Notes under the pieces: model-generated
Told to the model about the DNA's origin: nothing
Databases searched by the model: none
What the model saw: the letters and a program-made list of their open reading frames with translations, nothing else
Origin: Sulfitobacter guttiformis
Lineage (GTDB): Bacteria; Pseudomonadota; Alphaproteobacteria; Rhodobacterales; Rhodobacteraceae
DNA length: 64,000 nucleotides
Reading direction: 5' to 3'
Assembly (NCBI RefSeq): GCF_003610455.1
Contig: NZ_RAQK01000001.1
Span: 2,418,001-2,482,000, forward strand
Part shown: positions 28,374-46,494 of the stretch, piece after piece
Layout of the letters: every line of letters begins with the position of its first letter
How positions within the stretch are numbered: the first letter of the stretch is position 1
Program-made: the position numbers and the translations under genes

Positions 28374-31331
28374 TCAGGATCCTTTAACGGTAAGCGCATC
28401 ATCGACGAGCGCTGTTTGCTGTGCTTTGTGTTGTGAGGCGAGGCCGGTGGCAGGAGATGCCGAAGTCACGCGGCCGGCATAATCCGGGCGCCCGTGTTTG
28501 GCTTTGATGCGGCCCAGAACCCATTCGAGGTTAGGCTCGATGAACGTCCAGGCGCCCTGATTTTTGGGCTCTTCCTGACACCAGACCATCTCAGCGTTCT
28601 TGAACCGCTCCAGCTCCTTGACCGCAGATTGGGCAGGAAAGGGGTAAAACTGCTCGAAGCGCAGGATATAGACGTCATCAATGCCACGGGCGTCACGCTC
28701 TTCCAGCAGGTCATAGTAAACCTTGCCGGAGCACATGACGACGCGCTTGATCTTATCGTCGGCAACCAGCGTGGTTTCCGAGTTGCCTTGCTGCGCGTCA
28801 TCCCACAGCACACGGTGAAAGCTGGAGCCGGTGGTGAACTCTTCGGCTTTGCTCACAGCTAATTTGTGGCGGAGCAGGGATTTGGGCGTCATCAGCATCA
28901 ATGGCTTGCGGTAACTGCGGTGGAGCTGGCGGCGCAGGATGTGGAAATAATTTGCCGGAGTGGTGCAATTGGCCACGATCCAGTTATCACCGCCGCACAT
29001 GGTTAAGAACCGCTCAAGGCGGGCGGAGGAATGCTCCGGTCCTTGTCCCTCATAGCCGTGAGGCATGAGGCATACGAGGCCGGACATGCGCAGCCATTTA
29101 CTTTCGCCGGAACTGATGAATTGATCGAACATGATCTGCGCGCCGTTTGCGAAATCACCAAACTGGGCTTCCCACAGCGTCAGCGCATTCGGCTCTGCAA
29201 GCGAGTAGCCATATTCAAAGCCCAACACAGCATATTCTGACAGCATCGAATCGATTGCCTCGTATTCGGCCTGTCCTTTACGGATATTATTCAGCGGGTA
29301 ATACCGGTCTTCGGTATCCTGATTGATCAGGGCGGAATGGCGCTGGGAGAATGTACCACGTGTGCTGTCCTGCCCTGACAGGCGGACCTTGTACCCCTCG
29401 GTGAGCAAAGAGCCGAATGCGAGTGCCTCAGCGGTGGCCCAGTCAATACCGGTACCGCTCTCGAACATCTCGGCTTTTGCCTCCATCAGTCGTGCGACTG
29501 TTTTGTGAACGGGATATCCGTCTGGAATAGTACTAAGTGCTTTGCCCACATCCGCCATTGTCTCGGGGGCTATGGCGGTCTTGCCGCGCTGGTATTTCTT
29601 TTCGGTTGGGCGGCCCATATTGGCCCACTTCCCATCAAGCCAGTCGGCCTTGTTCGGGCGGTATTCTTTGCCGGCTTCGAACTCTTCGTTCAGCCGCGCC
29701 TGAAACTGCGCCTTCATGTCCTCTACTTCGCCCTCAGGAATGAGGCCGTCCTTTACCAGACGGTGAGTATAGAGCGTCAGCGTGGTTTTCTGTTTCTTGA
29801 TCTTTTTATACATGACGGGGTTCGTGAACATCGGTTCGTCCCCCTCGTTATGACCAAAGCGGCGATAGCAGATCATGTCGATCACCACATCTTTGTGGAA
29901 CTTTTGGCGGAATTCCGTAGCAACGCGGGCAGCATGCACCACCGCCTCTGGATCATCACCGTTGACGTGGAAAATCGGCGCTTCGACCACGAGCGCGTTA
30001 TCGGTGGGGTAGGGCGAGGATCGCGAGAAATGCGGCGCTGTGGTAAAGCCGATCTGGTTGTTCACAACGATGTGCATGGTGCCGCCTGTGCGGTGACCGC
30101 GCAGACCCGAAAGCGCAAAACATTCGGCCACAACACCTTGGCCGGCAAAGGCGGCGTCACCGTGAAGCAGGATGGGCATTACAGCGGTGCGGTCTTTATC
30201 GCCCAACTGGTCCTGCTTGGCGCGAACTTTGCCGATGACGACGGGGTTCACCGCCTCAAGGTGGGACGGGTTTGCCGTAAGAGACAAGTGAACAGCATTT
30301 CCATCAAACTCGCGGTCGGAGGAGGCTCCAAGATGGTATTTCACATCACCGGAACCGTCGACATCTTCGGGCTTGAAACTGCCGCCCTGAAATTCGTTGA
30401 AAATGGCGCGATAGGGTTTTTGCATCACGTTTGCCAATACTGACAAACGACCGCGGTGTGGCATGCCGATGACGATGTCGCGCACACCAAGGCTGCCACC
30501 GCGTTTGATGATCTGCTCCATTGCGGGGATCAGGCTTTCGCCGCCATCGAGGCCGAAACGCTTGGTGCCCATATATTTGACATGCAGGAATTTTTCGAAG
30601 CCTTCTGCCTCGACCAGCTTGTTCAGGATCGCTTTGCGCCCCTGTTTGGTGAACTGGATTTCCTTGCCGTAGCCCTCGATCCGCTCCTTAAGCCATGCAG
30701 CCTCTTCGGGGTTGGAAATGTGCATATATTGCAGAGCGAAAGTACCGCAATAGGTCGCTTTGAGGATGTCTGTGATCTGGCGCATGGTTGCGATTTGCAG
30801 GCCGAGCACGTTGTCGATGAAAATCGGGCGGTCCATGTCTGCTTCGTTGAAACCGTAAGATGCCGGATCAAGCTCGTTATGGGTGGTGATTTCGCGCATG
30901 CCCAGAGGATCAAGATCAGCAGCGAGGTGACCGCGGATACGGAATGCGCGGATAATCATGAGCGCCCGGATGGAATCGAGCACCGCACGCTGGATCTGGT
31001 CATCCGAGACCTCGATGCCCTTGGCGGCTGCCTGTGCCGCAATTTTGCTGCCCGCTGCTTTTGCCTCGACAGGCCATTCGCCTGTCAGCGCATTCGTCAG
31101 ATCGTCGTGCGGCATCGGGGGCCAGTCTGTGCGTGCCCACGATGGACCCGTAGCCTCCGCTTTTACATCGTTTCCATCATCGCCAAGCGCTTTGAAAAAC
31201 TCTTGCCAGCTCTCGTCAACGGCCGAAGGGTCGTTGGCATAGCGCGCATACATCTGCTCCAGATACTCCGCATTATGGCCCTGCATAAAAGAGGAGGCGT
31301 GGAACTGGTCGTTGGCGGGATGGTCGGTCAT
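28374..31331 (-). CDS. sucA: 2-oxoglutarate dehydrogenase E1 component
   Basis: A 985-residue thiamine-diphosphate enzyme that decarboxylates 2-oxoglutarate. The N-terminal [17 protein letters not shown] for E2 binding, [29 protein letters not shown] (ThDP/metal) and [19 protein letters not shown] are all present. I start it at the ATG at 31331 with GCGAGG seven bases upstream; the frame stays open to 31403, but that part runs through an inverted repeat. It lies between sucD and sucB in the suc operon. Confidence 0.96.
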
Positions 31332-31379
31332 TGCGAAGCCTCGCTTGAGATCAACTTGACGATTGGGTGAAGGAAAGTC

Positions 31380-31401
31380 GTGGGGGGATTGCGCCCCCCA
31401 C
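31380..31401. promoter_or_regulatory. Strong GC hairpin between sucD and sucA
   Basis: GTGGGGGG (31380-31387) and CCCCCCAC (31394-31401) pair perfectly around a 6-base loop in the 77-bp gap between the sucD stop and the sucA start. On the transcribed (minus) strand there is no T-run behind it, so it is more likely an mRNA-processing or stability element, or an attenuator, than a full terminator. Confidence 0.55.
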
Positions 31402-31408
31402 AAAAAGT

Positions 31409-32296
31409 TTAGCCTTTGTTAATGGCTTCTTGGACGGCTTCGCCAAGGGTGGCGGGGCTGTCTGCTACAGTGATGCCTGCTTCGCGCATCGCGTTGATTT
31501 TGCTCTCTGCATCACCTTTACCGCCTGCAACGATGGCACCTGCGTGGCCCATGCGGCGGCCCGGAGGGGCAGTGCGGCCCGCGATGAAACCTGCGGTTGG
31601 TTTCCAGCGACCCTTTTTACGCTCGTCCGCGAGGAATTGAGCGGCCTCTTCTTCGGCGGAACCGCCGATTTCACCAATCATGATTATCGAGTGCGTTTCA
31701 GGGTCGGCAAGGAACATTTCCAGCACGTCGATATGCTCTGTGCCTTTGATCGGATCGCCGCCGATGCCGACAGCTGTGGACTGGCCCAGGCCTAGATCGG
31801 TCGTCTGCTTTACCGCCTCATATGTGAGCGTGCCCGAGCGCGAGACAACACCACATGAGCCGCGCTTATGGATATGACCAGGCATGATGCCGATTTTGCA
31901 GGCGTCTGGCGTAATAACACCAGGACAGTTGGGGCCGATCAGGCGGGATTTGGAGCCATCCAGTGCGCGCTTGACGCGCATCATGTCGAGAACAGGAATG
32001 CCTTCGGTGATGCAAACAATCAGCTCCATCTCGGCGTCGATCGCTTCAAGAATGGAGTCGGCGGCAAACGGGGGCGGCACGTAGATCACTGTGGCATTGG
32101 CCTGTGTGACATGGCGTGCCTCGTGGACAGAGTTGAACACGGGCAAGCCGATGTGGTTCTGGCCGCCTTTGCCGGGTGTCACGCCGCCAACCATTTTCGT
32201 GCCATAGGCAATCGCCTGCTCGCTGTGGAATGTCCCCTGAGAGCCGGTGAGGCCCTGACAGATTACGCGTGTGTTCTCGTCGATAAGTACGGCCAT
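31409..32296 (-). CDS. sucD: Succinyl-CoA synthetase alpha subunit
   Basis: The 295-residue alpha subunit forms succinyl-CoA/succinate with SucC and carries the phosphohistidine. The CoA-binding Rossmann part ([15 protein letters not shown]), the GPNCPGVI loop and [19 protein letters not shown] with the phosphorylated His are intact. It is separated from sucC by two exported-protein genes, an arrangement I believe is common in Rhodobacterales. The 152-bp gap upstream contains no obvious gene. Confidence 0.97.
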
Positions 32297-32448: not shown

Positions 32449-32937
32449 TCAGCTTCGCCCCGCTGGGCCGTCGATATAAAGTTCTTTGCCCGCTGCCGTT
32501 CCGTCAACGGCGATGCAATAGTTCTCAACCAAGCGCCGCGACCCGAAACCGATCTGGGCCGTTCCCGACTTGAGGGTGTAGAAAACGAAAACAACATCCT
32601 CAAAGGCCGCTAAAGGCAATTTTCCGAAGACAGCATCACCAAAGAGACCACTGTTGATCACTGCTTGCACTCGTATGTTGTTGGAGCTGCCGGCTGCACA
32701 ATAGGTGTCAAATAGGGATTTTGTCTGAGTGGCACCTGATGATTGTCCAGATGCTTTGGCAGTCAGGGCCCGCACAGCGCCCGTTGAAGGGTGCACTGCT
32801 TGGGGGCCGTCGCGCACCTCAAGCATTTTGGCGTCTGAACAAGCCGCAAGAGCGATGACCGCAATAAGTCCGCAAAGAACACCCAGCGGGCGCCTCTTGA
32901 GTACACATTTATTTACGCTCTGGTACATTGGGGTCAT
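32449..32937 (-). CDS. Lipoprotein between sucC and sucD
   Basis: A 162-residue protein with an N-terminal signal (RRPLGVLCGLIAVIALAAC) ending in the lipobox LAAC, so probably an acylated envelope protein. The mature part has two further Cys residues (DTYCAAG and ENYCIAV) that could form a disulfide, and no recognised domain. The ATG at 32937 overlaps the upstream stop as ATGA; a second ATG three codons on is also possible. Its place in the suc operon is clear but its role is unknown. Confidence 0.72.
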   Translation of the reverse strand: MTPMYQSVNKCVLKRRPLGVLCGLIAVIALAACSDAKMLEVRDGPQAVHPSTGAVRALTAKASGQSSGATQTKSLFDTYCAAGSSNNIRVQAVINSGLFGDAVFGKLPLAAFEDVVFVFYTLKSGTAQIGFGSRRLVENYCIAVDGTAAGKELYIDGPAGRS

Positions 32938-33458
32938 CTTTTCGTTTCACTCAATGGAATAAGTCGTTCGACATTTATAAATGTCTCTTGTCCGGCGCCG
33001 TAACTGCGCACGCCAATCTGAACCACTGCAATGCGGTCAGGATTGAGTTTGGCAGCGCCAAATTCGATTGCACCTTCTTGCATACTGAAACCTGCCGGGA
33101 CGTCGGTTGCGCGCGATGCCAAGCCTTCTTGTTCCAGACCTATCGAAAGCCACTCTGCTGCTGTCGCGATGTCAGAGCCTTCGAACGCAACCTCGCAGCG
33201 GCGATCCGTACCCGGTGTCATCTCGCGGCCCGTAACCGGAGAGGGAGCGACAGAGGAAAGTGGACGCAGATCGTAGAAATCTATCCGCGCTCCCGAGGGC
33301 CCAACCTTGGCCCGCGCTTTTTCCGCGGTCAAATACGGGCTGAAACAATTGTCGGCAAATGCCTTGCCAACGGTTGCCGCATCTTGTGCCGCCACAGCGC
33401 TGCCCGCCGCCAAAGCGGCGATCAGGCAGACTGTAACTGAGGAAGATGCGGCAAACAT
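32934..33458 (-). CDS. Exported protein between sucC and sucD
   Basis: A 174-residue protein with a signal peptide (FAASSSVTVCLIAALAAGSAVAA) and mature Cys residues in DNCFSPYL and DRRCEVAF, probably a periplasmic disulfide protein. I recognise no domain. The ATG at 33458 follows an AAAGG in the last codons of sucC, five bases after its stop. The 3' end overlaps the next lipoprotein gene by four bases, implying coupled translation. Confidence 0.72.
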   Translation of the reverse strand: MFAASSSVTVCLIAALAAGSAVAAQDAATVGKAFADNCFSPYLTAEKARAKVGPSGARIDFYDLRPLSSVAPSPVTGREMTPGTDRRCEVAFEGSDIATAAEWLSIGLEQEGLASRATDVPAGFSMQEGAIEFGAAKLNPDRIAVVQIGVRSYGAGQETFINVERLIPLSETKR

Positions 33459-33463
33459 ATGGA

Positions 33464-34657
33464 TCAGCCTTTGACGGCTTTCACGATTTTCTGCGCGCCA
33501 TCTTTGAGGTTCTCAGCCGCAATCACATCGAGGCCGGAATTGTTAATGATGGCCTTGCCCTCTTCAACGTTTGTTCCCTCAAGGCGCACAACCAGCGGTA
33601 CTTTAAGACCTACTTCTTTCACAGCGGCAACAACGCCTTCCGCGATAACATCACAGCGCATGATGCCGCCGAAGATGTTTACGAGGATGCCTTTGACCTG
33701 AGGGTCTGAGGTGATGATCTTGAAGGCTTCGGTCACTTTCTCTTTGGTGGCACCGCCACCTACGTCGAGAAAGTTGGCAGGCTCGGCACCGTAAAGCTTG
33801 ATGATGTCCATGGTGGCCATCGCAAGACCAGCACCATTCACCATACAACCGATTTCACCGTCGAGCGCGATGTAGTTAAGATCGTACTTGGAAGCTTCCA
33901 GCTCTTTGCTGTCCTCTTCTGTGGTATCACGCAGTTCAGCCACTTCGGGCTGACGGTACATCGCGTTACCGTCAAAGGACACTTTCGCATCGAGCACTTT
34001 GAGATCGCCGGAATCTGTGACGATCAGCGGGTTGATTTCAAGCATTTCCATATCGCGCTCAATGAACGCTTTGTAGAGCAGTCCCATCAGGCTCACGCAC
34101 TGCTTTACAGCTTTTCCTGTGAGACCAAGTTCGAACGCAATGCGGCGACCGTGAAATGCCTGAAATCCAGTTGCGGGATCGACTGAAAAGTTGATGATTT
34201 TCTCTGGCGTGTTTTCCGCGACTTCTTCGATGTCCATGCCACCCTCGGTGGAGCAGACAAAGCCTACGCGCGATGTTTCGCGGTCAACCAACAGTGCAAG
34301 GTAAAGCTCTGTTTCGATACCGGAGCCGTCTTCGATGTATACGCGGTTGACCTGCTTACCTGCTGGTCCGGTCTGGTGCGTGACCAATGTGCGGCCCAGC
34401 ATTTTCTTCGCTTCCTCGGCGGCCTCGGCCACGGACTTTGTCAGACGAACGCCGCCTGCTTCCCCGGCACCGGCCTCTTTGAACTTGCCTTTGCCACGGC
34501 CACCTGCGTGGATTTGCGCCTTTACCACCCAGAGCGGGCCGCCCAGCTCTGCTGCGGCGGATTTTGCGTCTTCGGCTTTGAGCACGACACGCCCGTCCGA
34601 GACTGGTGCGCCGTAGCTGCGCAGGAGAGCTTTTGCCTGATATTCGTGGATGTTCAT
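33464..34657 (-). CDS. sucC: Succinyl-CoA synthetase beta subunit
   Basis: A 397-residue ADP/GDP-forming subunit with the ATP-grasp domain. It begins [19 protein letters not shown], carries [14 protein letters not shown], and ends with the [16 protein letters not shown] ligase loop, all standard. I use the ATG at 34657; a longer frame reaching 34768 overlaps the operator region and has no matching N-terminus. First gene of the suc operon, with the paired palindromes 113-143 bp upstream. Confidence 0.97.
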
Positions 34658-34985
34658 AAGCGACGGTCCCGTCTTTGGTTCAGATTTATGCGTGGTATAC
34701 GCAAGGTGCGTAATAATTCCTGAACAGCATTTCCCAGCCAGAGGTAATAATCCAGTGCAAAGTGACATTTGTGATCACGCAGGAAATTTGTGTGATCACA
34801 AAATGATGGATATCAGCGGAAAACTGCGTGACCGTGCGGGAGACTGGTCACCTTTTTGCAAAAGATAGAATTAATCTTCCTCAAAAGCGGCGCAAAATAT
34901 GAAATTCAGGGTTGTTCGGGGAAGGTGTGCCAAGTGCCAAACCGGATTCGATGCGGCTATGCCTGTCCATAGAGTTATAGGAAAG
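34658..34985. other. sucC upstream region between divergent-looking ends
   Basis: No gene is visible here. From right to left it holds the mch 3' hairpin, a plain AT-richer stretch (34850-34925), an inverted repeat GTGACC...GGTCAC (34828-34851), the two GTGATCAC palindromes (34770-34800) and about 110 bp leading to sucC. The promoter itself cannot be placed by eye. Confidence 0.6.
34770..34800. promoter_or_regulatory. Paired GTGATCAC palindromes upstream of sucC
   Basis: TGTGATCACG (34770-34779) and TGTGATCACA (34791-34800) share the perfect 8-bp core GTGATCAC, centred 21 bp apart, so they face the same side of the helix. They lie 113-143 bp before the sucC start. An almost identical pair precedes sdhC. 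The AkgR regulator (GntR family) is known to activate TCA genes in Rhodobacter sphaeroides and is a candidate, but I cannot confirm that its site looks like this. Confidence 0.75.
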
Positions 34986-35017
34986 GTTGGCCTGCGAAAA
35001 TCGGAACGCAGGCCAAC
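34986..35017 (-). terminator. Hairpin after mch
   Basis: GTTGGCCTGCG and CGCAGGCCAAC form a perfect 11-bp stem with a 10-base loop starting five bases after the mch stop in the transcribed direction; the bases following on the minus strand are CTTTCCT. It most likely ends the mcl2-NnrU-DUF1737-mch transcript. Confidence 0.72.
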
Positions 35018-35022
35018 GTTGT

Positions 35023-36069
35023 TTAGAGAGGCATCAGCGCCCAATAGTCGAGATCGAGCAGGACCGTAGGCAAGTATTTGCCATCCTCACTGCGCAGGGC
35101 GAATGCTTCGCCTCCTTTAGTTGCGACCAGACGCAAGCGGATCGCTCCAACGCCGGGGGCAGAAGTTTCCGCTTTGTCGAGCACCTCGGACCATGCGCGG
35201 ATGGTGTCGCCCGCAAGGCAGGGATTGGCATGTGCGCCGCCATTGAGGCCCACAACCATTTGCGCATTTGCCAGCCCATTGAAGGACAGCGCACGCGCCA
35301 TAGAAATCACGTGACCGCCATAGATCAGGCGGGTGCCATCGGGGCGCGCGGACGTGTCGAAATGCACCTTGGCCGTGTTTTGCCAGAGGCGGGTGGCCAT
35401 CATATGTTCGGCTTCTTCAATGGTGACGCCGTCGATGTGGTCTATTTTCTCGCCTATATCATAATCTGCCATGCGGTGCGCTTCTCCTGAAAGCGCAAAG
35501 TTGTAGCTGGTAAAGTCGAGACCTTCGGGGATCACAAGATCTGTCGCCTTGATCGCATCCGTGAGGGGGGGCACGACCGTTTCGGGGGCGGGCGCGCTGG
35601 TGTCGCGTTTGCGAACCATAACCCAGCGGACATATTCCATCACAGGCTGGTCGTGCTGGTTTAATCCAGTTGTACGTACATAGAGTACGCCGGTTTTTCC
35701 GTTCGAGTTTTCCTTCAGGCCGATAACTTCAGATTCGGAACGGAGGGTGTCACCGGGCCAAACTGGCAGCAGCCAGCGCCCTTGAGCGTATCCAAGGTTG
35801 GCCACAGCGTTTAAAGATACGTCGGGCACGGATTTCCCGAACACGACATGAAACGCGATCATATCGTCGAGGGGGCTGAAGGGGAGGCCGCAATCTTGGG
35901 CAAATTTGTCTGAAGAATAGAGCGCGTGGCGTGCGGGGTAGAGGGCATGATAAAGTGCGCGTTCGCCCATTTTGACAGTACGCGGCACAGCATGGGTTAG
36001 GATTTGACCGATCCGGTAATCCTCAAAGAAATTACCGGCGTTCGTTTTAGGAGCGTTGGTTTTCATCAT
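35023..36069 (-). CDS. mch: Mesaconyl-CoA (2-methylfumaryl-CoA) hydratase
   Basis: A 348-residue MaoC-like double hot-dog hydratase closely matching the mesaconyl-CoA hydratase of the ethylmalonyl-CoA pathway, which hydrates mesaconyl-CoA to beta-methylmalyl-CoA. NFFEDYRIGQILTHAVPRT and the second-half ARPDGTRLIYGGHVISMAR are typical. The length equals the roughly 343 residues of the Rhodobacter enzyme. It starts at ATG 36069 (or the adjacent ATG 36066), one base after the DUF1737 stop, and is the last gene of an operon led by mcl2. Confidence 0.93.
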   Translation of the reverse strand: MMKTNAPKTNAGNFFEDYRIGQILTHAVPRTVKMGERALYHALYPARHALYSSDKFAQDCGLPFSPLDDMIAFHVVFGKSVPDVSLNAVANLGYAQGRWLLPVWPGDTLRSESEVIGLKENSNGKTGVLYVRTTGLNQHDQPVMEYVRWVMVRKRDTSAPAPETVVPPLTDAIKATDLVIPEGLDFTSYNFALSGEAHRMADYDIGEKIDHIDGVTIEEAEHMMATRLWQNTAKVHFDTSARPDGTRLIYGGHVISMARALSFNGLANAQMVVGLNGGAHANPCLAGDTIRAWSEVLDKAETSAPGVGAIRLRLVATKGGEAFALRSEDGKYLPTVLLDLDYWALMPL

Positions 36070-36070
36070 T

Positions 36071-36274
36071 TCAATACGCGCCCAGTTTAGTCTCGGGGGT
36101 ATACGTGCCTTCGACTTCTTTTACGACACTTTGTCCGCAGCGCATTATGCCTGCGGCGTGGTCCCATGTCTGGGTCGGGGAGCCATAAAGCTCCCAGCCC
36201 CTGTTGAGTGCATCGGTGACTTTGTGACAAAATGCGGAGGTGTCTTCCTCCGACAGGAAACGGTAAAGCTTCAT
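36071..36274 (-). CDS. DUF1737-type small protein
   Basis: A 67-residue soluble protein starting at the ATG at 36274. MKLYRFLSEEDTSAFCHKVT followed by ALNRGWELYGSP matches the DUF1737 pattern, a short domain for which I know no function. It sits tightly between the NnrU gene (14 bp) and mch (1 bp), so it should be made together with ethylmalonyl-CoA pathway enzymes. The longer open frame to 36454 overlaps NnrU and is not real. Confidence 0.78.
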   Translation of the reverse strand: MKLYRFLSEEDTSAFCHKVTDALNRGWELYGSPTQTWDHAAGIMRCGQSVVKEVEGTYTPETKLGAY

Positions 36275-36288
36275 TGTATAGGGATCTT

Positions 36289-36843
36289 TCAGGAAAAGGG
36301 ATTTACGCCGAGAAGGATGTGAATGCTGCTGATTACAACAAGCATCACGAGGCTGATAACGGCGAGACGGATATAAGTGGCGCGACCGGCGGGGGCGGGG
36401 GCGGTCCAAGCAGGCTCTGCGCGGTTGATCAAAATGACCGATCCAACGGCCCATGCTAGCATGCCACCGAACAGAATGATCGAGGCAAGGTCACCGTTGA
36501 CCAGCAAATGGGCAGCAGCCCAGATCTTTACCGCCAGCAGTTGCGGATGGCGGGTTTTAGAAGCGGGCCATGCCTTAGCCTCTTTGGCAGCAGACGAGCC
36601 ATAGACCCAAAGCGCGAAGATCATTGCGAGATTGTTGATGCCGGTGAGGAAAGCGGGTGGGTACCAAATATCTATTATTTCGGCGCTGCGGTAGCCGATG
36701 ATCATCAGGGCAAGGGAGGCGACGATCGCAATCGCGATAGCACCTTTGCCCGCATTGCCGATCGCCGCACGTTGGGCTGGCATCAGGCGTTTGAAATAAT
36801 GGGCGGCGATCCAGAGGATCAGACCGAGGATCAGAAGGGTCAT
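36289..36843 (-). CDS. NnrU-family membrane protein
   Basis: A 184-residue protein with five to six membrane segments. LILGLILWIAAHYFKRLMP at the start, RSAEIIDIWYPPAFLTGINNLAMIFA and a TRHPQLLAVKIWAAAHLLVNGDLASIILFGGMLAWAV segment are hallmarks of NnrU, named for its role with nitric oxide reduction but widespread in aerobic alphaproteobacteria. It is related to the NnrU/isoprenylcysteine-methyltransferase-like fold. Here it is placed inside an ethylmalonyl-CoA pathway operon, six bases after mcl2, without denitrification genes. Confidence 0.87.
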   Translation of the reverse strand: MTLLILGLILWIAAHYFKRLMPAQRAAIGNAGKGAIAIAIVASLALMIIGYRSAEIIDIWYPPAFLTGINNLAMIFALWVYGSSAAKEAKAWPASKTRHPQLLAVKIWAAAHLLVNGDLASIILFGGMLAWAVGSVILINRAEPAWTAPAPAGRATYIRLAVISLVMLVVISSIHILLGVNPFS

Positions 36844-36848
36844 TGTGG

Positions 36849-37706
36849 CTACTCCGTGCCGAGGGCGTTGATTGCATCCAGCTTTGCCAGTGTTTCGCGT
36901 GCTGTGGCAACATGTAGATTTTCGACGATGCGGCCATCAACAACGGCAACGCCCTGTCCGGTTGCTTCACATTCCTCGAACGCTTCAATCTGCCGGCGGG
37001 CAAGATCGACCTCGGACTCTGAGGGAGAGAAGGCTGCGTTTGCGACCTCGAGCTGGGCAGGATGAATCAGCGTCTTGCCGTCAAAACCCATATCACGACC
37101 CTGCTCACATTCGAGCTTCAGACCCTCGTCATCCTTGAACGCATTATAGACCCCGTCAATGAGCGCAATGCCGTGGGCCTTGCCCGCCAATACACAAAGG
37201 CCCAAACCTGTAAGCATTGGCAAGCGATCGGCGCGGGCACGGCATTGCAGTTCCTTGGCCAGATCGTTGGTTCCCATGACCATGCATTCGAGGAGGCGGT
37301 GTGCTGCGATGGCTGGCGCGTTGAGCATACCAGCAGGTGTTTCCATCATTGCCCACAGAGGTATGTCACCCACGATTTCGGCCAGCGCTTCGAGGTCAGC
37401 AGGTGAATTCACTTTTGGCAGCAAGATAGCGTCCGCGCCCATCGCGGCGGCCGCTTTTGCATCATCGGCGCCCCATTTTGTGTCCAGCCCGTTGATGCGG
37501 ATGATCTTCATTCGCGTGCCGTAGCCGCCCGTTTTCAGCGCTTCGCCAAGTGTTTCGCGCGCCGATACTTTCTCTTCGGGTATCACTGCATCCTCTAGGT
37601 CGAAGATTATGGCGTCAGCGGACAGACCGCGTGCCTTGTCGAGTGCGCGGGGTTTGGAGCCGGGGATATAGAGAACGGAACGCAAAGGGCGGGTGATTGC
37701 AGGCAT
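36849..37706 (-). CDS. mcl2: (3S)-malyl-CoA thioesterase
   Basis: A 285-residue HpcH/CitE-type TIM barrel. RSVLYIPGSKPRALDKARGL, the metal-binding FDLEDAV and MMETPAGMLNAP, and GFDGKTLIHPAQL are present. Length and sequence resemble Mcl2 of Rhodobacter sphaeroides, which hydrolyses (3S)-malyl-CoA to malate and completes the ethylmalonyl-CoA pathway, better than the longer Mcl1 lyase (about 318 residues). The ATG at 37706 has AAGGAG six bases upstream; an open frame to 37985 is ignored. First gene of a four-gene operon with NnrU, DUF1737 and mch. Confidence 0.92.
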   Translation of the reverse strand: MPAITRPLRSVLYIPGSKPRALDKARGLSADAIIFDLEDAVIPEEKVSARETLGEALKTGGYGTRMKIIRINGLDTKWGADDAKAAAAMGADAILLPKVNSPADLEALAEIVGDIPLWAMMETPAGMLNAPAIAAHRLLECMVMGTNDLAKELQCRARADRLPMLTGLGLCVLAGKAHGIALIDGVYNAFKDDEGLKLECEQGRDMGFDGKTLIHPAQLEVANAAFSPSESEVDLARRQIEAFEECEATGQGVAVVDGRIVENLHVATARETLAKLDAINALGTE

Positions 37707-37728
37707 GAGAGGCTCCTTAGTAAATTTG

Positions 37729-37750
37729 GTTGCGCAATAAAGTTGCGCAT
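37729..37750. promoter_or_regulatory. Repeated GTTGCGCA element before mcl2
   Basis: GTTGCGCAAT (37729-37738) and GTTGCGCAT (37742-37750) repeat with a 13-bp period, 23-44 bp before the mcl2 start; the first contains the palindrome TTGCGCAA. The layout resembles the paired TTTGCAAA boxes of ScfR/PccR-type acyl-CoA regulators, but the sequence differs. A similar pair lies before ccr. Confidence 0.5.
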
Positions 37751-37800
37751 AGAGGGGCATTTTAGGCGGTAAACTGCAAGCCAATTCGCGCCGCAGCGCA

Positions 37801-37959
37801 GCGGGAAACAGACCCGCAACACAGCGCGGACGCAGCGTTAGCTGCGTTTTCAGGGCTTGTGGAGCAGGGTCAGGGCACTGTCGGAAAGTGCTGGGGGTCG
37901 ATAAGCCGATCGCTTGTCTGACAGTCCAAGGATCAACTGGCGGGGCGGGCATTCCCGCC
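37801..37959. other. Hairpin-rich stretch between divergent mcl2 and a small exported protein
   Basis: Within the 277 bp between the two starts there are several short perfect hairpins: GCGGG/CCCGC (37801-37817), ACGCAGC/GCTGCGT with a GTTA loop followed by TTT (37830-37850), and GGCGGG/CCCGCC with a CATT loop (37944-37959), plus GCACT/AGTGC near 37880. It could be a structured leader or a small RNA; no open frame stands out. Confidence 0.4.
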
Positions 37960-37983
37960 GCAGCACACTGGAAGGGCACTGAC

Positions 37984-38316
37984 ATGAAACGGATTACTAA
38001 ACTACTGCACCTTGCCGCGCTAACCGGAGCGGCAGTTGTGTATCTTTCTTCAACACAACAACTTGCTGCACGGTCACAACCAAATTGCGGTCCCCGCGAT
38101 GCGGTACTGGCCCAATTGGCGGAGCGCTACGGCGAGACACGCCGGTCTATAGGGATCGGATCTAACAATGCTGTCGTCGAGACGTTCGCAAGCGATGAGA
38201 CCGGTAGTTGGACCATTTTGGTAACGCTTCCGAGCGGATTGACCTGCCTTGTCGCCTCCGGCCAATCATTCGAGCACGTCGTTGAAGCGCTGCCGTCCAA
38301 AGGTAGTGACGCCTGA
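37984..38316 (+). CDS. Small exported protein of unknown function
   Basis: A 110-residue protein with a signal peptide (MKRITKLLHLAALTGAAVVYLSS) and a mature part with two Cys (NCGPRDAV and LTCLVAS). CGPRDAVLAQLAERYGETRRSIGI followed by NAVVETFASDETGSWTILVTLPSGLTCLVASG is a recurring pattern of small alphaproteobacterial secreted proteins; no named domain. ATG at 37984 has GGAAGGG upstream. It converges on a TauE-like transporter gene. Confidence 0.75.
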   Translation: MKRITKLLHLAALTGAAVVYLSSTQQLAARSQPNCGPRDAVLAQLAERYGETRRSIGIGSNNAVVETFASDETGSWTILVTLPSGLTCLVASGQSFEHVVEALPSKGSDA

Positions 38317-38329
38317 GCGTGGCCAGCGG

Positions 38330-39085
38330 TCAGGTCAACCCGTCCCAGATGAGTTTTGTGCCTGTAAGCAAAAGCAATACATAAGTAAGCGCGAAAAATG
38401 CACGCTCCGGCACGATCCGGTGCGCGCGTACCCCAAGCCATGCGCCAAGCAAAGCAAAGGGTGCAAGCACCAGATTGGCCTGCACGGTTTCCAGCGTGAA
38501 CATACCGAGAAAGGCATAGGGAATAAATTTCGCAATGTTCACCGCCCAAAAGATTAGCACGGACGTTGCCTGATATCCGGTTTTATCCAGCCCTCGCGAC
38601 AGCAGGAATACGGCCGCAGGCGGGCCGCCTGCATGGCTGACGAAGCTGGTGAAGCCCACAGTAATGCCCGCAACAAGGCCGGCGCCATCCGACATATGCC
38701 GCTGGCCCATCCGCAACCAGCCCCGTTTGACGCTGATCTGCCACATGACAAACCCGACAGACACGACACCGATCAGGAGCCGCAGAAAATCAGGTGAGGC
38801 TATGCGGTAGAGGGCGGCGCCAAGGACAACTCCGGGCAGTGCGCCTGAAATCACCAAAACCGCCTCACGGCGGTGCCAGCGGCCCCAATAGGGTCTGAGC
38901 GAGGCCACATCGATCAGCATCAGCAGCGGCAGCATCACACCAAGGGCCAGACCCGGATCAACTACAATCGCCAGAACAGAGGAAGCCGCAAAAGCCGCCC
39001 CCGAGCCGAACCCGCCTTTGGAGATCCCTGCAAACAATACTGCAGGGCCTGCGATGGCAAAGAACCACAGGTCGAGAATGAGCAT
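38330..39085 (-). CDS. TauE/SafE-family (TSUP) membrane transporter
   Basis: A 251-residue protein with about seven to eight membrane segments arranged as two similar halves. KGGFGSGAAFAASSVLAIVVDP near the start and GFTSFVSHAGGPPAAVFLLSRGL in the second half are the two TSUP repeat motifs. The family exports sulfite, sulfonate-derived anions or other organic anions; no substrate clue exists here. Stand-alone gene. Confidence 0.88.
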   Translation of the reverse strand: MLILDLWFFAIAGPAVLFAGISKGGFGSGAAFAASSVLAIVVDPGLALGVMLPLLMLIDVASLRPYWGRWHRREAVLVISGALPGVVLGAALYRIASPDFLRLLIGVVSVGFVMWQISVKRGWLRMGQRHMSDGAGLVAGITVGFTSFVSHAGGPPAAVFLLSRGLDKTGYQATSVLIFWAVNIAKFIPYAFLGMFTLETVQANLVLAPFALLGAWLGVRAHRIVPERAFFALTYVLLLLTGTKLIWDGLT

Positions 39086-39186
39086 CTATGCCTCTTGAAT
39101 TTGCGCGTTTGTGCTTATGTGTGACATGTAGTTGACTGCTGACCAACTGCTGATTTCGGATATTTGTCCTTTGGGAGGACCACATT

Positions 39187-39618
39187 ATGAACAGTTTTTT
39201 TACCTCGGCCGCATTGATGGTCGCTTTGGCTGGCCCGGCGTTCGCTCAGTCTCAGGAAACTGAGGTCGGGAGTGTGAAGATGTCCGAGGCCAGCCTGCTG
39301 GTAGGCGAGATGATCGGCGAGGCTGTCTATAACTTTCGGGGCCGTCCCAATACAGAAGAGCGGATGCCCCTGTCAGGACTGGAACGGTTCGAGCGGGTCG
39401 CGACGATCAAGGATGTGATGATTAACGCTGACGGCACTGTCGAGGCGCTGGTGCTGAGTGTGGGTGGCTTTTGGGGGCTGGCAGATCATGAAGTGACGGC
39501 CGCGATCGATGGCGTCAGTGTTGTCACCGATGTGCGGGGGGACAAATATTTTGTGATCTACGCCTACGATGAAACTCTTCGTAGCGCGCCGCGGTTTAAC
39601 AAGTTCGACATCGAGTGA
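39187..39618 (+). CDS. Exported PRC-barrel domain protein 1
   Basis: A 143-residue protein with a signal peptide (MNSFFTSAALMVALAGPAFAQ) and a PRC-barrel-like region: LVGEMIGEAVYNFRG, then VATIKDVMINADGTVEALVLSVGGFWGLADHEVT. PRC-barrels bind RNA, proteins or photosynthetic reaction centres, and small exported copies are abundant in Rhodobacterales with no known role. The downstream gene encodes a second protein of the same design, so they are probably paralogues. Confidence 0.85.
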   Translation: MNSFFTSAALMVALAGPAFAQSQETEVGSVKMSEASLLVGEMIGEAVYNFRGRPNTEERMPLSGLERFERVATIKDVMINADGTVEALVLSVGGFWGLADHEVTAAIDGVSVVTDVRGDKYFVIYAYDETLRSAPRFNKFDIE

Positions 39619-39665
39619 GTGCACGTTGACATTGTAAACAAGGCTGGCGCGGAAGCACAAATTAA

Positions 39666-39683
39666 TTTCACACTTTTGTGAAA
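39666..39683. promoter_or_regulatory. TTTCACA/TGTGAAA inverted repeat upstream of the second PRC gene
   Basis: TTTCACA (39666-39672) and TGTGAAA (39677-39683) form a perfect 7-bp repeat with a 4-base spacer, 77-94 bp before the second PRC-barrel gene. It could be an operator or a hairpin ending the first PRC transcript; it lacks a T-run. Confidence 0.4.
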
Positions 39684-39759
39684 ATACTGGAACCATTTTG
39701 TCGCAGCAGGAGTTGGTATGTCAGAAGTTACGATGATATAACAACAACTTAGGAGATAT

Positions 39760-40308
39760 ATGATGAAAAAGTTTCTGACATCCACCGCAGTAATTCTGGC
39801 AATGACCGCACCTGCATTTGCGGAGTCACACTCAGCTGCGACGACTGACACAGATGCTGCTGTAAGCACCGATACAAACGCCGCAACGGCAGATACCAAT
39901 GTTGCAACAACAAGCGACACAAACGTTGTCACAACAGACATGAACATGGAAATCGGTTCGGTGATGGCGCAGCCAACTGACCTGTTTGCATCGAACCTGA
40001 TCGGCATGCGTATTTACAGCGTGGAAGCCGACATGGACTACAATGCCGAAGTTGCGGATGGCGCTGAGACAGAATGGGACGACCTTGGCGAGATCAACGA
40101 CATCATCGTGACTGCAGACGGTCGGGTCTCGGCTGTGATTCTCGGCATCGGCGGGTTCCTCGGCATAGGCGAGCGTGACGTGTCTGTTCCAATGGGTGCA
40201 ATCAACTTTGTACAAGAAGAAGGTGATAGCGATGATTACTTCTTGGTCGTGAAAAGCTCGAAAGAGCAGCTGGAAGCAGCACCGGCCTTTGAGCGCGACG
40301 CCATGTAA
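39760..40308 (+). CDS. Exported PRC-barrel domain protein 2 with Thr/Asp-rich linker
   Basis: A 182-residue protein with a signal peptide (MMKKFLTSTAVILAMTAPAFA), a 40-residue linker of repeated TDT, TDTNA and DTNV units (about 27-62), then a PRC-barrel with LIGMRIYSVEADM, DLGEINDIIVTADGRVSAVILGIGGFLGIGERDV. Two adjacent ATGs exist; the second (39763) has better spacing to GGAG. The conserved core matches the upstream protein, so this is a tandem duplicate that gained the linker. A terminator follows. Confidence 0.85.
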   Translation: MMKKFLTSTAVILAMTAPAFAESHSAATTDTDAAVSTDTNAATADTNVATTSDTNVVTTDMNMEIGSVMAQPTDLFASNLIGMRIYSVEADMDYNAEVADGAETEWDDLGEINDIIVTADGRVSAVILGIGGFLGIGERDVSVPMGAINFVQEEGDSDDYFLVVKSSKEQLEAAPAFERDAM

Positions 40309-40363
40309 ATCGCAATTTGTTCTGTGACTTCAATCCCCTGAAGAAATCGGAACAATAGCGTGA

Positions 40364-41455
<1,092 letters not shown>

Positions 41456-41476
41456 ACGGTCCGGTCAGTCCGGTTC

Positions 41477-41508
41477 AAAGGCGTGCCTCTTCGGGCGCGC
41501 CTTTTTTT
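41477..41508 (+). terminator. Rho-independent terminator after mdh
   Basis: AAAGGCGTGCC and GGGCGCGCCTTT form a stem with two G-U pairs around a short TCTTC-like loop, followed by a run of T, 21 bp after the mdh stop. Confidence 0.88.
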
Positions 41509-41534
41509 GGGGGATTCTGTACTTGGGCTTGATG

Positions 41535-41566
41535 GCTGTGATCACAGCTGAGAGCGTGTGATCACA
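41535..41566. promoter_or_regulatory. Paired GTGATCAC palindromes upstream of sdhC
   Basis: GCTGTGATCACAGC (41535-41548) is a perfect 14-bp palindrome, and TGTGATCACA (41557-41566) repeats its core; the GTGATCAC centres are 20 bp apart. They lie 128-159 bp before sdhC, behind the mdh terminator. The same core pair with 21-bp spacing lies before sucC, and both sites share TGTGATCACAAAAT, so a common regulator of these TCA operons is likely. Confidence 0.78.
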
Positions 41567-41693
41567 AAATTACCAAGCTACGATAGTTTTACTGGAAATT
41601 TGCCGAAACACGGCCGTGAATCCCAGTATGCCCCCGTGACAGTGCCGAAAAATACGTTAGTAGTATTGGCAAGTAGCCACAAAGGAGCCTGAT

Positions 41694-42077
41694 ATGGCCG
41701 ATGTGAACCGGGGCAACCGCCCCTTGTCGCCACACCTTTCGATATACCGCCCGCAGTTGACGTCGATGACTTCTATTCTCACGCGGATCACGGGCAACGC
41801 GATGTTGATCTCTGCCTTGCTGATCGTCTGGTGGTTTCTTGCCGCTGCGAGCGGTCCTGACGCCTTTGCGACTGCAAACGGGTTTTTGACCAGTTGGTTC
41901 GGTGATCTGGTGATGTTTTTCTCTGTGCTGGGGTTGTGGTATCACACGCTGGCCGGTGTACGGCATCTGATCTGGGATAATGCAGTGATGATGGATATTC
42001 CAACAGCGGAAAAGTTGGGCTGGGCCTGCATCGGTGGGTCGGTTTTGCTGACGCTGATCACTGTTATCGCGCTTTGA
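41694..42077 (+). CDS. sdhC: Succinate dehydrogenase cytochrome b556 subunit
   Basis: A 127-residue membrane anchor with three membrane segments. RPLSPHLSIYRPQLTSMTSILTRITG holds the quinone-side Ser/Arg motif, and HTLAGVRHLIWD gives the haem-ligand His of SdhC. ATG at 41694 follows AAAGGAG. First gene of the sdh operon, 11 bp before sdhD. Confidence 0.95.
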   Translation: MADVNRGNRPLSPHLSIYRPQLTSMTSILTRITGNAMLISALLIVWWFLAAASGPDAFATANGFLTSWFGDLVMFFSVLGLWYHTLAGVRHLIWDNAVMMDIPTAEKLGWACIGGSVLLTLITVIAL

Positions 42078-42087
42078 GGAGAGAAAT

Positions 42088-42459
42088 ATGGCTTATTTGA
42101 CTGACCGCAAACGCGCGATGGGGCTTGGTTCTGCCAAGAGCGGCTCGGCGCATCATTGGTCGATGACCATCAGCTCGGTCGCGTTGCTGATCCTGTTGCC
42201 GCTGTTTGTGTTTACATTCGGCGCTGCCTTGGGCGGCACATACGAGGAAATCCTCGCCTATTATGCGCGGCCTTTCCCCGCGATTGTGGCGGCGCTTACG
42301 GTTCTCGTCACATTCAAGCATTTCAACGATGGTGTGCGCACCTTGCTTGAGGATTATGTGCACGGACTGGCACAAAAAATATCCATCGTCGTTATGACTT
42401 GCGTGAGCTACGGCGCTGCCGCAGTTGGCATATTCGCGATTGCGCGTTTGGCCCTTTAG
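42088..42459 (+). CDS. sdhD: Succinate dehydrogenase hydrophobic anchor subunit
   Basis: A 123-residue anchor with three membrane segments. GSAKSGSAHHWSMTISSVALLILLP at the start and VTFKHFNDGVRTLLEDYVHG, containing the haem/quinone-site residues, match alphaproteobacterial SdhD. ATG at 42088 follows GGAGAGAA. A 184-bp gap with a small CGCGG/CCGCG hairpin near 42530 separates it from sdhA; I see no gene in it. Confidence 0.94.
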   Translation: MAYLTDRKRAMGLGSAKSGSAHHWSMTISSVALLILLPLFVFTFGAALGGTYEEILAYYARPFPAIVAALTVLVTFKHFNDGVRTLLEDYVHGLAQKISIVVMTCVSYGAAAVGIFAIARLAL

Positions 42460-42643: not shown

Positions 42644-44449
42644 ATGGCTGCTTATGAGTATGAGACCCATGAATACGACGTTGTTGTAGTAGGAGCGGGA
42701 GGCGCGGGCCTTCGCGCAACGCTGGGTATGGCGGAGCAGGGGCTGAAAACGGCCTGTATCTCGAAAGTGTTCCCGACACGCTCGCACACTGTGGCCGCGC
42801 AGGGCGGTATCGCTGCATCGCTGAGCAACATGGGGCCAGATAGCTGGCAGTGGCATATGTATGACACGGTCAAGGGGTCGGATTGGCTCGGTGATACGGA
42901 CGCGATGGAGTATCTGGCGCGCGAAGCACCGAAGGCCGTTTACGAACTGGAGCATTACGGTGTGCCGTTCTCGCGCACCGAAGAGGGAAAGATTTATCAG
43001 CGCCCATTCGGGGGTCACACAACCGAATTCGGTGAGGGCCCGCCAGTGCAGCGGACCTGTGCTGCGGCCGACCGGACCGGTCACGCAATATTGCACACGC
43101 TCTATGGTCAGAGCCTCAAGCACAACGCGGAATTCTATATCGAATATTTCGCTATTGATTTGGTGATGTCGGATGACGGTGTATGCCAAGGCGTCCTTTG
43201 CTGGAAGCTCGATGATGGTACGATGCACCTGTTTTCGGCCAAGATGGTCGTTCTGGCTACGGGCGGTTATGGCCGTGCTTATTTCTCTGCAACTTCCGCG
43301 CACACCTGTACCGGTGATGGCGGCGGTATGACGGCGCGGGCTGGTTTGCCGCTTCAGGATATGGAATTCGTGCAGTTCCATCCCACCGGCATTTATGGCG
43401 CGGGCTGTTTGATAACCGAAGGCGCACGCGGAGAGGGTGGATATCTCACCAACTCCGAGGGCGAGCGCTTCATGGAGCGCTACGCGCCCACCTACAAAGA
43501 CCTCGCATCACGTGATGTTGTTTCGCGCTGTATGACGATGGAGATCCGCGAAGGCCGCGGCGTGGGTGAGAAGGGGGATCACATCCACCTGCACCTCAAC
43601 CACCTTCCGCCGGAAACGCTTGATCTGCGTCTTCCCGGTATCTCTGAATCTGCGCGAATTTTTGCGGGCGTCGATCTGACAAAAGAGCCGATCCCGGTTC
43701 TGCCGACTGTCCACTACAACATGGGTGGCATTCCAACCAATTATTGGGGCGAGGTGCTGGCGCCGACTAAAGACAAGCCTGACAATATCTCCCCCGGCCT
43801 GATGGCTGTGGGCGAAGCGGGCTGTGCGTCTGTGCACGGGGCGAACCGCCTTGGTTCCAATTCTTTGATTGACCTTGTGGTGTTTGGCCGCGCTGCTGCG
43901 ATCCGGGCAGCACAGATTGTGGATCCAAAAACACCGGTACCAACGCCGAGCAAACGCTCCATCGAAGCTGCCTTCTCTCGCTTTGACGGGTTGCGCTATG
44001 CCAAAGGCCATGTCCCCACAGCCGAGCTGCGCCTTGAAATGCAGCAGACTATGCAGGCCGATGCCGCGGTATTCCGTACGGACAAGACCCTCGCAGAGGG
44101 TGAGGAAAAGATGAAAAGTGTCGCGGGTAAGTTGTCGGACATCAAGGTCACCGATACTTCGATGGTATGGAACTCCGATCTGATGGAAACTCTGGAGCTC
44201 ACGAACCTGATGCCAAATGCGGTGGCCACCATTACCGCGGCGGCAGCGCGTAAAGAAAGTCGTGGCGCCCACGCCCATGAGGATTATCCAAACCGTGACG
44301 ATGAGAACTGGCGCAAGCACAGCTTGATCTGGTTCAAGGGTAACGAGGCAAGCCTTGGTTTCCGTGGTGTACATCTGAAGCCGCTGACCAGCCACAACGA
44401 GGGCGGTATCGACCTCAAGAAAATCGCACCCAAAGCGCGGGTATACTAA
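42644..44449 (+). CDS. sdhA: Succinate dehydrogenase flavoprotein subunit
   Basis: A 601-residue flavoprotein that oxidises succinate to fumarate. [15 protein letters not shown] binds [16 protein letters not shown] carries the covalently flavinylated His48, and [21 protein letters not shown] and [19 protein letters not shown] are active-site and FAD segments. Its stop is two bases before the sulfotransferase-like gene, so the operon continues. Confidence 0.97.
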
Positions 44450-44451
44450 GC

Positions 44452-45348
44452 ATGAACGTGGCGGCGCAGACACAGGCATCGTGGCCGCAGGCGGGTTTTT
44501 CCCCCGTCTGTGCGCTACAGGTGTTTGGTATGCGCCGCTCGGGCAACCACGCGATAATCGATTGGCTGATGCGTAATTCCCCCGACGGGGCGACCGGTGG
44601 CGTTTTCTATAACAACTGCAAGTTTGGCAAAAATCCCGAGCGTGCTTTTGGCTCGCTTGATGTGTATGATGCCAATCGTGAGGTTACACCTCACAAGGAT
44701 ATAACGGATAAGGCGCGCATCATGCAGGCCGGTTCTGCGCCCATGGTGATCGTATCCTACGAGGATCGTATGCCTGAGCCACAAGGGCAGGCTCAAAAAG
44801 CCAGTGACGGTTTCAAAAATACCGACTTTTCATATCAGGTGATCATCTACCGCAGCTTTCTGAATTGGTCTGCAAGCCTGCTGGCCAAGCTCAAGAAAAA
44901 TGCCGGTTACGGAATGACCGACCGCATGCGCATTATGATGCTGGCCCTGAACGGTTATATTGAGGGCCTGGACAAGGTAGCGAGCAAGCGGGAAGTCCGC
45001 GCAATCTGCTATGATGAGTGGATGACCTCCGAATGCTACCGGAGCGAAACACTTGCCAGCCTTGGGCTGCCGGTGCGCGATCTGGATCGTGGAAATGTCC
45101 GCCGTTACGGGGGTGGTTCCTCGTTTCAAGGCAAGGGCGTGTCAGCGGACAACCTTGGCTCTACTTCACGAGATGCGGAGATGGCAGAAGACCCCGAATA
45201 CCAGCTTTTGCTATGGACGGCGGCCCATGACCTTCAATTCATGGAGCGGCTGATCCCGCATTTCGAAGCGGATGCCGAACGTCTTGCGACACTTGCCGAA
45301 ACATCGAAACTGCACATAAAGCTCCCGCCTCGAAAGGCTCATGTATGA
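44452..45348 (+). CDS. Sulfotransferase-like P-loop protein inserted between sdhA and sdhB
   Basis: A 298-residue soluble protein. FGMRRSGNHAIIDWLM (residues 25-40) resembles the 5'-phosphosulfate loop of PAPS-dependent sulfotransferases and related kinases, and YQVIIYRSFLNWSASLLAKL (about 127-146) looks like the 3'-phosphate site (R ... S). No other motif is clear, so a sulfotransferase fold is an inference and substrate unknown. It begins two bases after the sdhA stop and ends overlapping the lipoprotein gene as ATGA, so it is fully embedded in the sdh transcript. Confidence 0.72.
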   Translation: MNVAAQTQASWPQAGFSPVCALQVFGMRRSGNHAIIDWLMRNSPDGATGGVFYNNCKFGKNPERAFGSLDVYDANREVTPHKDITDKARIMQAGSAPMVIVSYEDRMPEPQGQAQKASDGFKNTDFSYQVIIYRSFLNWSASLLAKLKKNAGYGMTDRMRIMMLALNGYIEGLDKVASKREVRAICYDEWMTSECYRSETLASLGLPVRDLDRGNVRRYGGGSSFQGKGVSADNLGSTSRDAEMAEDPEYQLLLWTAAHDLQFMERLIPHFEADAERLATLAETSKLHIKLPPRKAHV

Positions 45349-45668: not shown

Positions 45669-45714
45669 AATTTCGCGGAGAAATCCGCGCCGACTGACCC
45701 AAAGGAACAGCATC

Positions 45715-46494
45715 ATGGTACAACTGACGCTCCCAAAAAACTCCCGCATGACGAGCGGTAAAACATGGCCTAAGCCCCAAGGCGCGACCAACCTCAAGGA
45801 ATTCCACATCTATCGTTGGAACCCCGATGATGGCAAAAACCCCTCCGTGGACACATATTTTGTGGACATGGATGACTGTGGCCCGATGGTTCTGGATGCG
45901 ATCATCAAAATCAAGAACGAGATTGACCCAACGCTGACGTTCCGCCGCTCCTGCCGCGAAGGTATTTGCGGATCATGCGCGATGAATATCGACGGCATCA
46001 ACACACTGGCCTGTACCTATGGCATGGCCGAAGTCAAAGGCGTCGTGAAAATCTATCCTTTGCCGCACATGCCGGTGGTCAAGGATCTGATCCCCGACCT
46101 CACGCATTTCTATGCACAGCATGCCTCGATCAAACCATGGTTGGAGACAGAGACACCCGCGCCTGCGAAAGAATGGAAGCAGTCAATCGAGGACCGCTCC
46201 AAGCTTGACGGTCTTTATGAGTGCATTATGTGCGCCTGTTGCTCGACCTCCTGCCCAAGTTACTGGTGGAACGGCGATCGCTACCTAGGACCCGCAGCGT
46301 TGCTTCATGCTTATCGCTGGATCATCGACAGCCGTGACGAGGGCACAGGCGAGCGACTTGACGAGCTCGAGGACCCCTTCAAGCTCTATCGCTGCCACAC
46401 GATCATGAACTGCGCCAAGACATGCCCAAAAGGTCTCAACCCTGCGCTGGCAATTGCCCAGATCAAAAAACTGATGATCGAGCGGACCGTTTAA
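45715..46494 (+). CDS. sdhB: Succinate dehydrogenase iron-sulfur subunit
   Basis: A 259-residue iron-sulfur protein. The [2Fe-2S] cysteines are in [12 protein letters not shown], and the [4Fe-4S]/[3Fe-4S] sets in [11 protein letters not shown] and [17 protein letters not shown] at 45715 fits the conserved [12 protein letters not shown] start; the open frame before it is not used. Two unrelated genes separate it from sdhA, which is unusual for most bacteria but plausible for this group. Confidence 0.97.

Follow-up and report, generated by a model that had tools for sequence, protein, structure and literature searches.

The window, i.e., the whole stretch of 64,000 nucleotides of Sulfitobacter guttiformis DNA that was analysed, carries the suc operon on the minus strand and the sdh operon on the plus strand, together with mdh. 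Both operons are preceded by two copies of a short palindrome, and the genes and elements discussed below are as follows.

28374 to 31403, minus strand: sucA, 2-oxoglutarate dehydrogenase E1 (listed open reading frame; the true start may be internal)
31409 to 32296, minus strand: sucD, identity checked by Pfam
33464 to 34657, minus strand: sucC, gene 1 of the suc operon (Pfam ATP-grasp_2 and Ligase_CoA)
34694 to 34699, minus strand: TATACC, tentative candidate -10 of sucC
34719 to 34724, minus strand: TTCAGG, tentative candidate -35 of sucC, with a conserved TT, 19 nt from the candidate -10
34771 to 34778, minus strand: GTGATCAC, candidate gene-proximal operator of sucC, followed by AAAT in gene orientation
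34792 to 34799, minus strand: GTGATCAC, candidate gene-distal operator of sucC, 21 bp away from its proximal partner, with TTTT before it in gene orientation
41538 to 41545, plus strand: GTGATCAC, candidate gene-distal operator of sdhC, inside a 14-bp palindrome (41535 to 41548)
41558 to 41565, plus strand: GTGATCAC, candidate gene-proximal operator of sdhC, 20 bp away from its distal partner, with AAAAT after it
41636 to 41641, plus strand: GTGACA, candidate -35 of sdhC within a conserved CGTGACA that starts at 41635, 77 nt past the start of the proximal operator
41658 to 41663, plus strand: TAGTAG, candidate -10 of sdhC, in columns favouring T, A and A (68 promoters aligned on [CG]GTGAC)
41694 to 42077, plus strand: sdhC, gene 1 of the sdh operon (Pfam Sdh_cyt)
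42088 to 42459, plus strand: sdhD, checked by Pfam
42644 to 44449, plus strand: sdhA, checked by Pfam
45712 to 46494, plus strand: sdhB, checked by Pfam
within the window, plus strand: mdh, identity checked with the suc and sdh genes

A 298-residue open reading frame at 44452-45348, which has no Pfam match, seems to interrupt the sdh operon between sdhA and sdhB. Two small open reading frames lie between sucC and sucD (32449-33458, minus strand), one of which was tested and gave no Pfam match.

An exact search of the whole window found GTGATCAC four times (34771-34778, 34792-34799, 41538-41545 and 41558-41565), against 1.18 expected, a count reached in 1 of 100 shuffles. All four copies belong to the two pairs, whose starts are 21 bp apart at suc and 20 bp apart at sdh and lie at -142/-121 relative to the ATG of sucC and at -156/-136 relative to that of sdhC. 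The distal sdhC copy is enclosed in the perfect 14-bp palindrome GCTGTGATCACAGC (41535-41548), and both regions contain the 14-mer TGTGATCACAAAAT (34791-34804 and 41557-41570). This 14-mer is on the plus strand at both loci, whereas sucC is on the minus strand, so that it covers the copy farther from the gene at suc but the one nearer to the gene at sdh; in gene orientation, the sequence common to the two promoters is GTGATCACAAA at the proximal copy. The initial annotation had described such twin palindromes before sdhC and sucC, the longer palindrome around the distal sdh copy, a stretch common to both regions, similar distances to the genes and an absence of other copies from intergenic DNA of the window, and each of these observations holds. 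In the 3.98 Mb genome GTGATCAC occurs 108 times, and exact copies with spacers of 8-16 form only two pairs, both of them in the window, where random placement of 108 copies would give about 0.026 such pairs; the pair is thus confined to suc and sdh rather than scattered across its own genome. The reversed pattern gave 6 hits in the genome, an unfair single-site control because the reversed word contains CTAG.

The conservation of the pair was followed in two samples. In the family sample of 198 genomes from 197 genera, where exact pairs were counted anywhere in the genome irrespective of their position at suc or sdh, 175 genomes contain the pair: exactly two in 128, one in 37 and three or four in 10 (hand count), with 0 for the pattern read backwards in all rows of the search. 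In the named-locus sample, made up of 80 relatives fetched through mdh plus the window itself, sucC could be located in 73 loci and sdhC in 68, the remaining genes lying beyond the fetched stretch or being unmatched. The pair precedes sucC in 73/73 and, in exact form, sdhC in 65/68, while two further sdhC loci (L062, L117) have one substituted site at 21 bp and one (L125) has no pair. The orthologous promoters, in which the initial annotation proposed to look for the pair, thus carry it almost without exception. The spacing is 21 bp in 68 and 20 bp in 5 of the sucC pairs, and 21 bp in 61 and 20 bp in 4 of the 65 sdhC pairs; a search that allowed up to 40 bp between copies returned one other distance, in L113, which arises from a third copy. 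Such a third GTGATCAC, on the side of the pair away from the gene, is present in 14 of the 68 sdhC loci (L063, L068, L073, L075, L081, L083, L085, L096, L113, L114, L120, L134, L136 and L140). In 31 of the 73 loci, the interval from the pair to the sucC start contains the heptamer ACGGGAC (34657-34680 in the window); it lies near the sucC start in the loci listed, and may belong to the ribosome binding region.

In a sample of the class, the pair was found in 9 of 289 genomes, 4 of which are members of the family; it is thus rare beyond the family. The reversed control gave 6 hits in one other genome (G271). Of the five pairs from outside the family, those of L189 and L190 are in long open reading frames and those of L187, L188 and L194 look intergenic. 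The pairs of L194 (1501-1532) and L188 (992-1020) lie beside GntR-like open reading frames, which were identified by eye and by aligning them to the candidate regulator described below, and the L194 pair is placed between its GntR-like frame and an aldehyde-dehydrogenase-like one (named by eye). GTGATCAC seems to serve a wider GntR subgroup.

The surroundings of the two copies were read in a larger set, to which 33 promoters were added from 36 loci fetched because of a pair (3/36 matched neither sucC nor sdhC); these additions are excluded from the presence counts above. Flanks of TTT outside the distal copy and AAA outside the proximal copy were found in 143/184 cases at sucC and 78/158 at sdhC, and the same flanks on the inner sides in 4/184 and 2/158. 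The 14-bp palindrome GCTGTGATCACAGC of the window is not the common form: on the left side of the distal copy, the 79 sdhC promoters most often have TTT (63%, 56% and 88%). Each palindrome is symmetric alone, and its flanks are asymmetric. Since the flanks are on the outer sides only, the pair looks like one unit, as two touching dimers would give, with an overall two-fold axis and the approximate form TTTGTGATCACA-N11-TGTGATCACAAA, 35 bp in length.

Downstream of the pair, CGTGACA is common in the sdhC promoters (CGTGAC in 43/65, against 1.7 in shuffles), and [CG]GTGAC was found in 68 of the 79 promoters and is lacking in 11; where a promoter held several, the one nearest to CGTGACA/T was taken. 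With the promoters aligned on this element, the columns 23, 24 and 27 nt past its start favour T, A and A, which corresponds to a -10 separated by a 16-nt spacer and makes GTGACA the most likely -35 of sdhC. The element lies 54-55 nt from the proximal operator in 10 promoters, 58 in 1, 63-67 in 43, 76-77 in 8 and 85-87 in 6 (n = 68; 77 in the window), and 67 of the 68 offsets fall into four classes about one helical turn apart, the classes being drawn post hoc. The best-fitting periods are near 10.75, with one class dominating. On a tree of 57 loci the offset class changed at least seven times, one change being out of phase (L094, offset 58); a rough binomial estimate, in which any distance is allowed and the classes are post hoc, puts the chance of at least six in-phase shifts out of seven at about 0.02. 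These data are suggestive of an operator-to-element distance at sdhC that steps by whole helical turns. At sucC, a conserved TT lies about 55 nt past the proximal site, near the shortest sdhC class, and the assignment of this promoter is tentative. With these candidate promoters, transcription would start near 41670 for sdhC and, on the minus strand, slightly past 34694 for sucC.

Elsewhere in the genome, 1.2 Mb from the pairs, a GTGATCAC with TT/AA flanks is found 10-17 nt ahead of a GntR gene (L007; gene at 1225331-1225978 of contig C1), whose product contains GntR and FCD domains. The nearest solved structure is that of McbR (PDB 4p9f, E 3e-20), a GntR-type protein of E. coli, the role of which differs from that of the candidate regulator. 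A match to the candidate was found in 186 genomes, and the upstream region was examined for its own gene and for the best match in 29 further genomes. GTGATCAC is present within 200 nt upstream in 30/30, between -10 and -24 in 28 and at exactly -17 in 14, and in 27/30 the start of a TTGA[CT] is exactly 18 nt upstream of it, placing GTGATCAC where the spacer and the -10 should be, i.e., in a repressor position. The flanked word GTGATCACAA gave 16 rows in the genome, corresponding to 15 places because the regulator-gene place is found on both strands: two at suc, one at sdh, one at the regulator gene, nine in or at the start of open reading frames and two that look intergenic. The last two, copies of GTGATCAC with an AA/TT flank in L175 (at 1503) and L015/L185 (at 1502 in L015), are possible single-site targets. 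In the examined part of the 108 GTGATCAC places, the candidate's gene is the sole regulator gene with an upstream copy.

The regulator and the pairs also occur together. With an ortholog defined by E better than 1e-60, a threshold placed at a gap in the values after these had been seen, 171 of the 198 family genomes have both, 19 have neither, 4 have the regulator only and 4 the pair only (Fisher p 5e-19, uncorrected for kinship), and 19 of the 23 genomes without a clear ortholog are also without the pair. After dropping the 23 genomes that are less than 90% complete, the counts among the 175 left are 156, 15, 2 and 2. Among the regulator-only genomes, G040 has both pairs with one mismatch each, G147 and G166 are 73% and 71% complete, and sucC was not found in G155. 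Among the pair-only genomes, G096 (77% complete) has no match to the regulator, and G033 (74%), G019 (91%) and G114 (100%) have weak matches. In the 19 genomes with neither, sucC could be read in 16 and sdhC in 15, and an exact GTGATCAC is found in 0/16 within 300 nt of sucC and in 0/15 within 250 nt of sdhC. Words with one mismatch do occur before sucC in such genomes (L203, L208, L210), e.g., GTGATCAA at -115 in G109, and GTGATAAC and GCGATCAC at -138 in G157 and G017; they are possibly remnants, judging by position, or due to chance, with about two expected by a rough estimate. A SucC tree of 38 genomes, not randomly drawn and with both traits scored in 36, requires 8 and 9 changes of the two traits; its well-supported branches give 4 independent pairs, so that the test is underpowered and the sign test does not reach significance (median p 0.5), and no pairing ran opposite to the co-occurrence. 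In the sdhC promoters of regulator-less genomes, a strong TTGACA -35 was not seen at the usual place (15 read); GTGACA is kept in 3/15 (L227, L228, L230), and no [GT]TGAC occurs within 250 nt in 10/15.

AkgR is reportedly RSP_0981 and is said to have been described by Imam in 2015 as a direct activator of TCA genes, and RSP_1663 is a second regulator, which we take to be CceR. GTGATCAC is stated to be among the R. sphaeroides AkgR binding sites in a passage of PMC6365646, where AkgR is called a transcriptional activator. In the relevant passage of PMC4344238, RSP_0981, a GntR protein located a few locus tags from sdh (RSP_0974-6) in R. sphaeroides, is a predicted regulator of sucCD, sdh and 2-oxoglutarate dehydrogenase, and RSP_1663 is predicted to act on sdh and mdh. 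The parts of PMC11323563, PMC7471390 and PMC4419725 that bear on the subject cite the primary AkgR paper or treat CceR, and nothing more. In a literature search for GTGATCAC, the best 40 of 397 matches were off topic by title or start of the abstract, and the best 12 of 113 matches of a further search gave nothing more on AkgR by title. As described in these passages, the AkgR regulon of R. sphaeroides, a different genus from S. guttiformis, is like the present system in its GTGATCAC motif, its GntR-family regulator and its suc, sdh and 2-oxoglutarate dehydrogenase targets. In the present system, the core GTGATCAC is found before the suc, sdh and 2-oxoglutarate dehydrogenase operons, and a GntR/FCD regulator is tied to the sites. 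Two of the 80 named loci (L081, L105) contain a relative of the candidate about 10 kb from mdh and end there, and in at least seven genomes (G010, G042, G051, G063, G124, G154, G197) such a relative lies up to 20 kb from a pair on the same contig; elsewhere the relatives are farther away, e.g., 57 kb in G165 and 82 kb in G127. Family, motif, autoregulatory site and synteny together lend support, short of proof, to orthology of the candidate to RSP_0981, and the regulator of the pairs is very probably AkgR. The initial annotation had named AkgR as its leading candidate and proposed a comparison with the published site; the occurrence of GTGATCAC among the sites given in PMC6365646 and the predicted targets of RSP_0981 support that choice, and one regulator for both operons, as it had suggested, fits the conservation of the pair and its co-occurrence with the candidate.

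It is improbable that a paralog of AkgR, i.e., another GntR/FCD protein, uses the pairs instead. With a threshold of E 1e-20, this genome contains two matches to the candidate, the pair is kept in three genomes that have weak matches only (G019, G033, G114), and GTGATCAC is seemingly used by other GntR proteins, such as those of L188 and L194 and the Pseudomonas simiae regulator PS417_07240. The last, which is 32% identical to AkgR according to a passage of PMC6365646, has a proposed GTGATCAC site near its own start codon, but differs in that its proposed role is the control of a deoxyribose cluster rather than the TCA cycle. However, 8 of the 11 genomes with weak matches only (E 1e-22 to 1e-58) are without the pair, and the upstream GTGATCAC at the candidate's gene, the only such case among the examined sites of this genome, argues for the candidate itself.

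Taken on sequence grounds, the pair is likely, with good confidence, to be a composite operator for the GntR/FCD protein AkgR, whose cooperative dimers would activate both operons and which would repress its own gene. Each palindrome would hold one AkgR dimer, and the two dimers, on one side of the helix at a distance of two turns, would touch across the spacer to form a tetramer-like unit. Placed whole turns upstream of the -35, this unit would activate suc (sucC-sucD-sucA) and sdh in concert, making the steps at 2-oxoglutarate, succinyl-CoA and succinate rise and fall jointly. At the regulator gene, the lone site is between the -35-like TTGAC and the start codon, and a bound dimer would block the promoter. 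Binding by AkgR, tetramer formation, activation and autorepression are inferred. Class I activation by CRP tolerates displacement of the activator, which is bound upstream of the -35, by whole helical turns. The proposed arrangement may be analogous in having an upstream activator at distances differing by whole helical turns; it differs in the protein family and in the two dimers proposed to share a composite site.

Slightly less probable than the use of the pairs by a paralog is the opposite sign of control, in which the pair is a repressor site and AkgR, or a protein like it, switches suc and sdh off. The same site is found in a repressor position at the regulator's own gene, which speaks for this explanation. 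However, at sdh (and tentatively at suc) the pair is about 50-90 nt upstream of a -35-like element, a location usual for activators, and GTGACA would be a weak -35, a feature that fits a promoter in need of activation; AkgR is moreover called a transcriptional activator in the passage of PMC6365646. Activation by AkgR is preferred. That the palindromes act in RNA, as a hairpin, terminator or riboswitch, would suit their perfect symmetry and their place in leader-like DNA, but is very improbable: they are upstream of the -35 elements inferred here, match no Rfam family at threshold in 34400-41900 and are conserved in their exact letters; on the Rfam result and the position, an RNA element was rejected. 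Equally little weight is given to the idea that CceR or CRP/FNR acts at the sites or that their GATC is a target of DNA methylation. The core does contain GATC, but this alone leaves 8-10 conserved bases unexplained, and a CRP site has the form TGTGA-N6-TCACA, from whose spacing the core differs. RSP_1663 is predicted on sdh and mdh in the passage of PMC4344238; however, its published motif occurs in 6/68 sdhC promoters against 5.6 in shuffles and in 3/73 sucC promoters against 7.4, and a CceR co-site was rejected for this lack of enrichment.

The element recognized by AkgR in the preferred reading belongs to a known kind, and is a well conserved, largely expected control element. What is added beside the passages of PMC6365646 and PMC4344238 is its family-wide conservation, fixed composite architecture and apparent helical phasing, as well as the GTGATCAC copy before the regulator gene and the joint occurrence of site and regulator. 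Opinion is evenly poised on the fuller picture, in which a 35-bp composite operator would hold an AkgR tetramer, its distance to the promoter would evolve almost only by whole turns, a lone in-promoter site would mediate self-repression and thus a self-limiting switch, retained in most of the family, and the sites would be lost with the regulator. Two copies of GTGATCAC 20 or 21 bp apart provide a signature of likely AkgR control of the TCA cycle in most genomes of the family, and in S. guttiformis the regulator gene can be named and its negative autoregulation predicted. The sdhC promoters form a natural series in which a putative activator site is moved by about whole helical turns, and the regulator-less genomes may serve as natural knock-outs.
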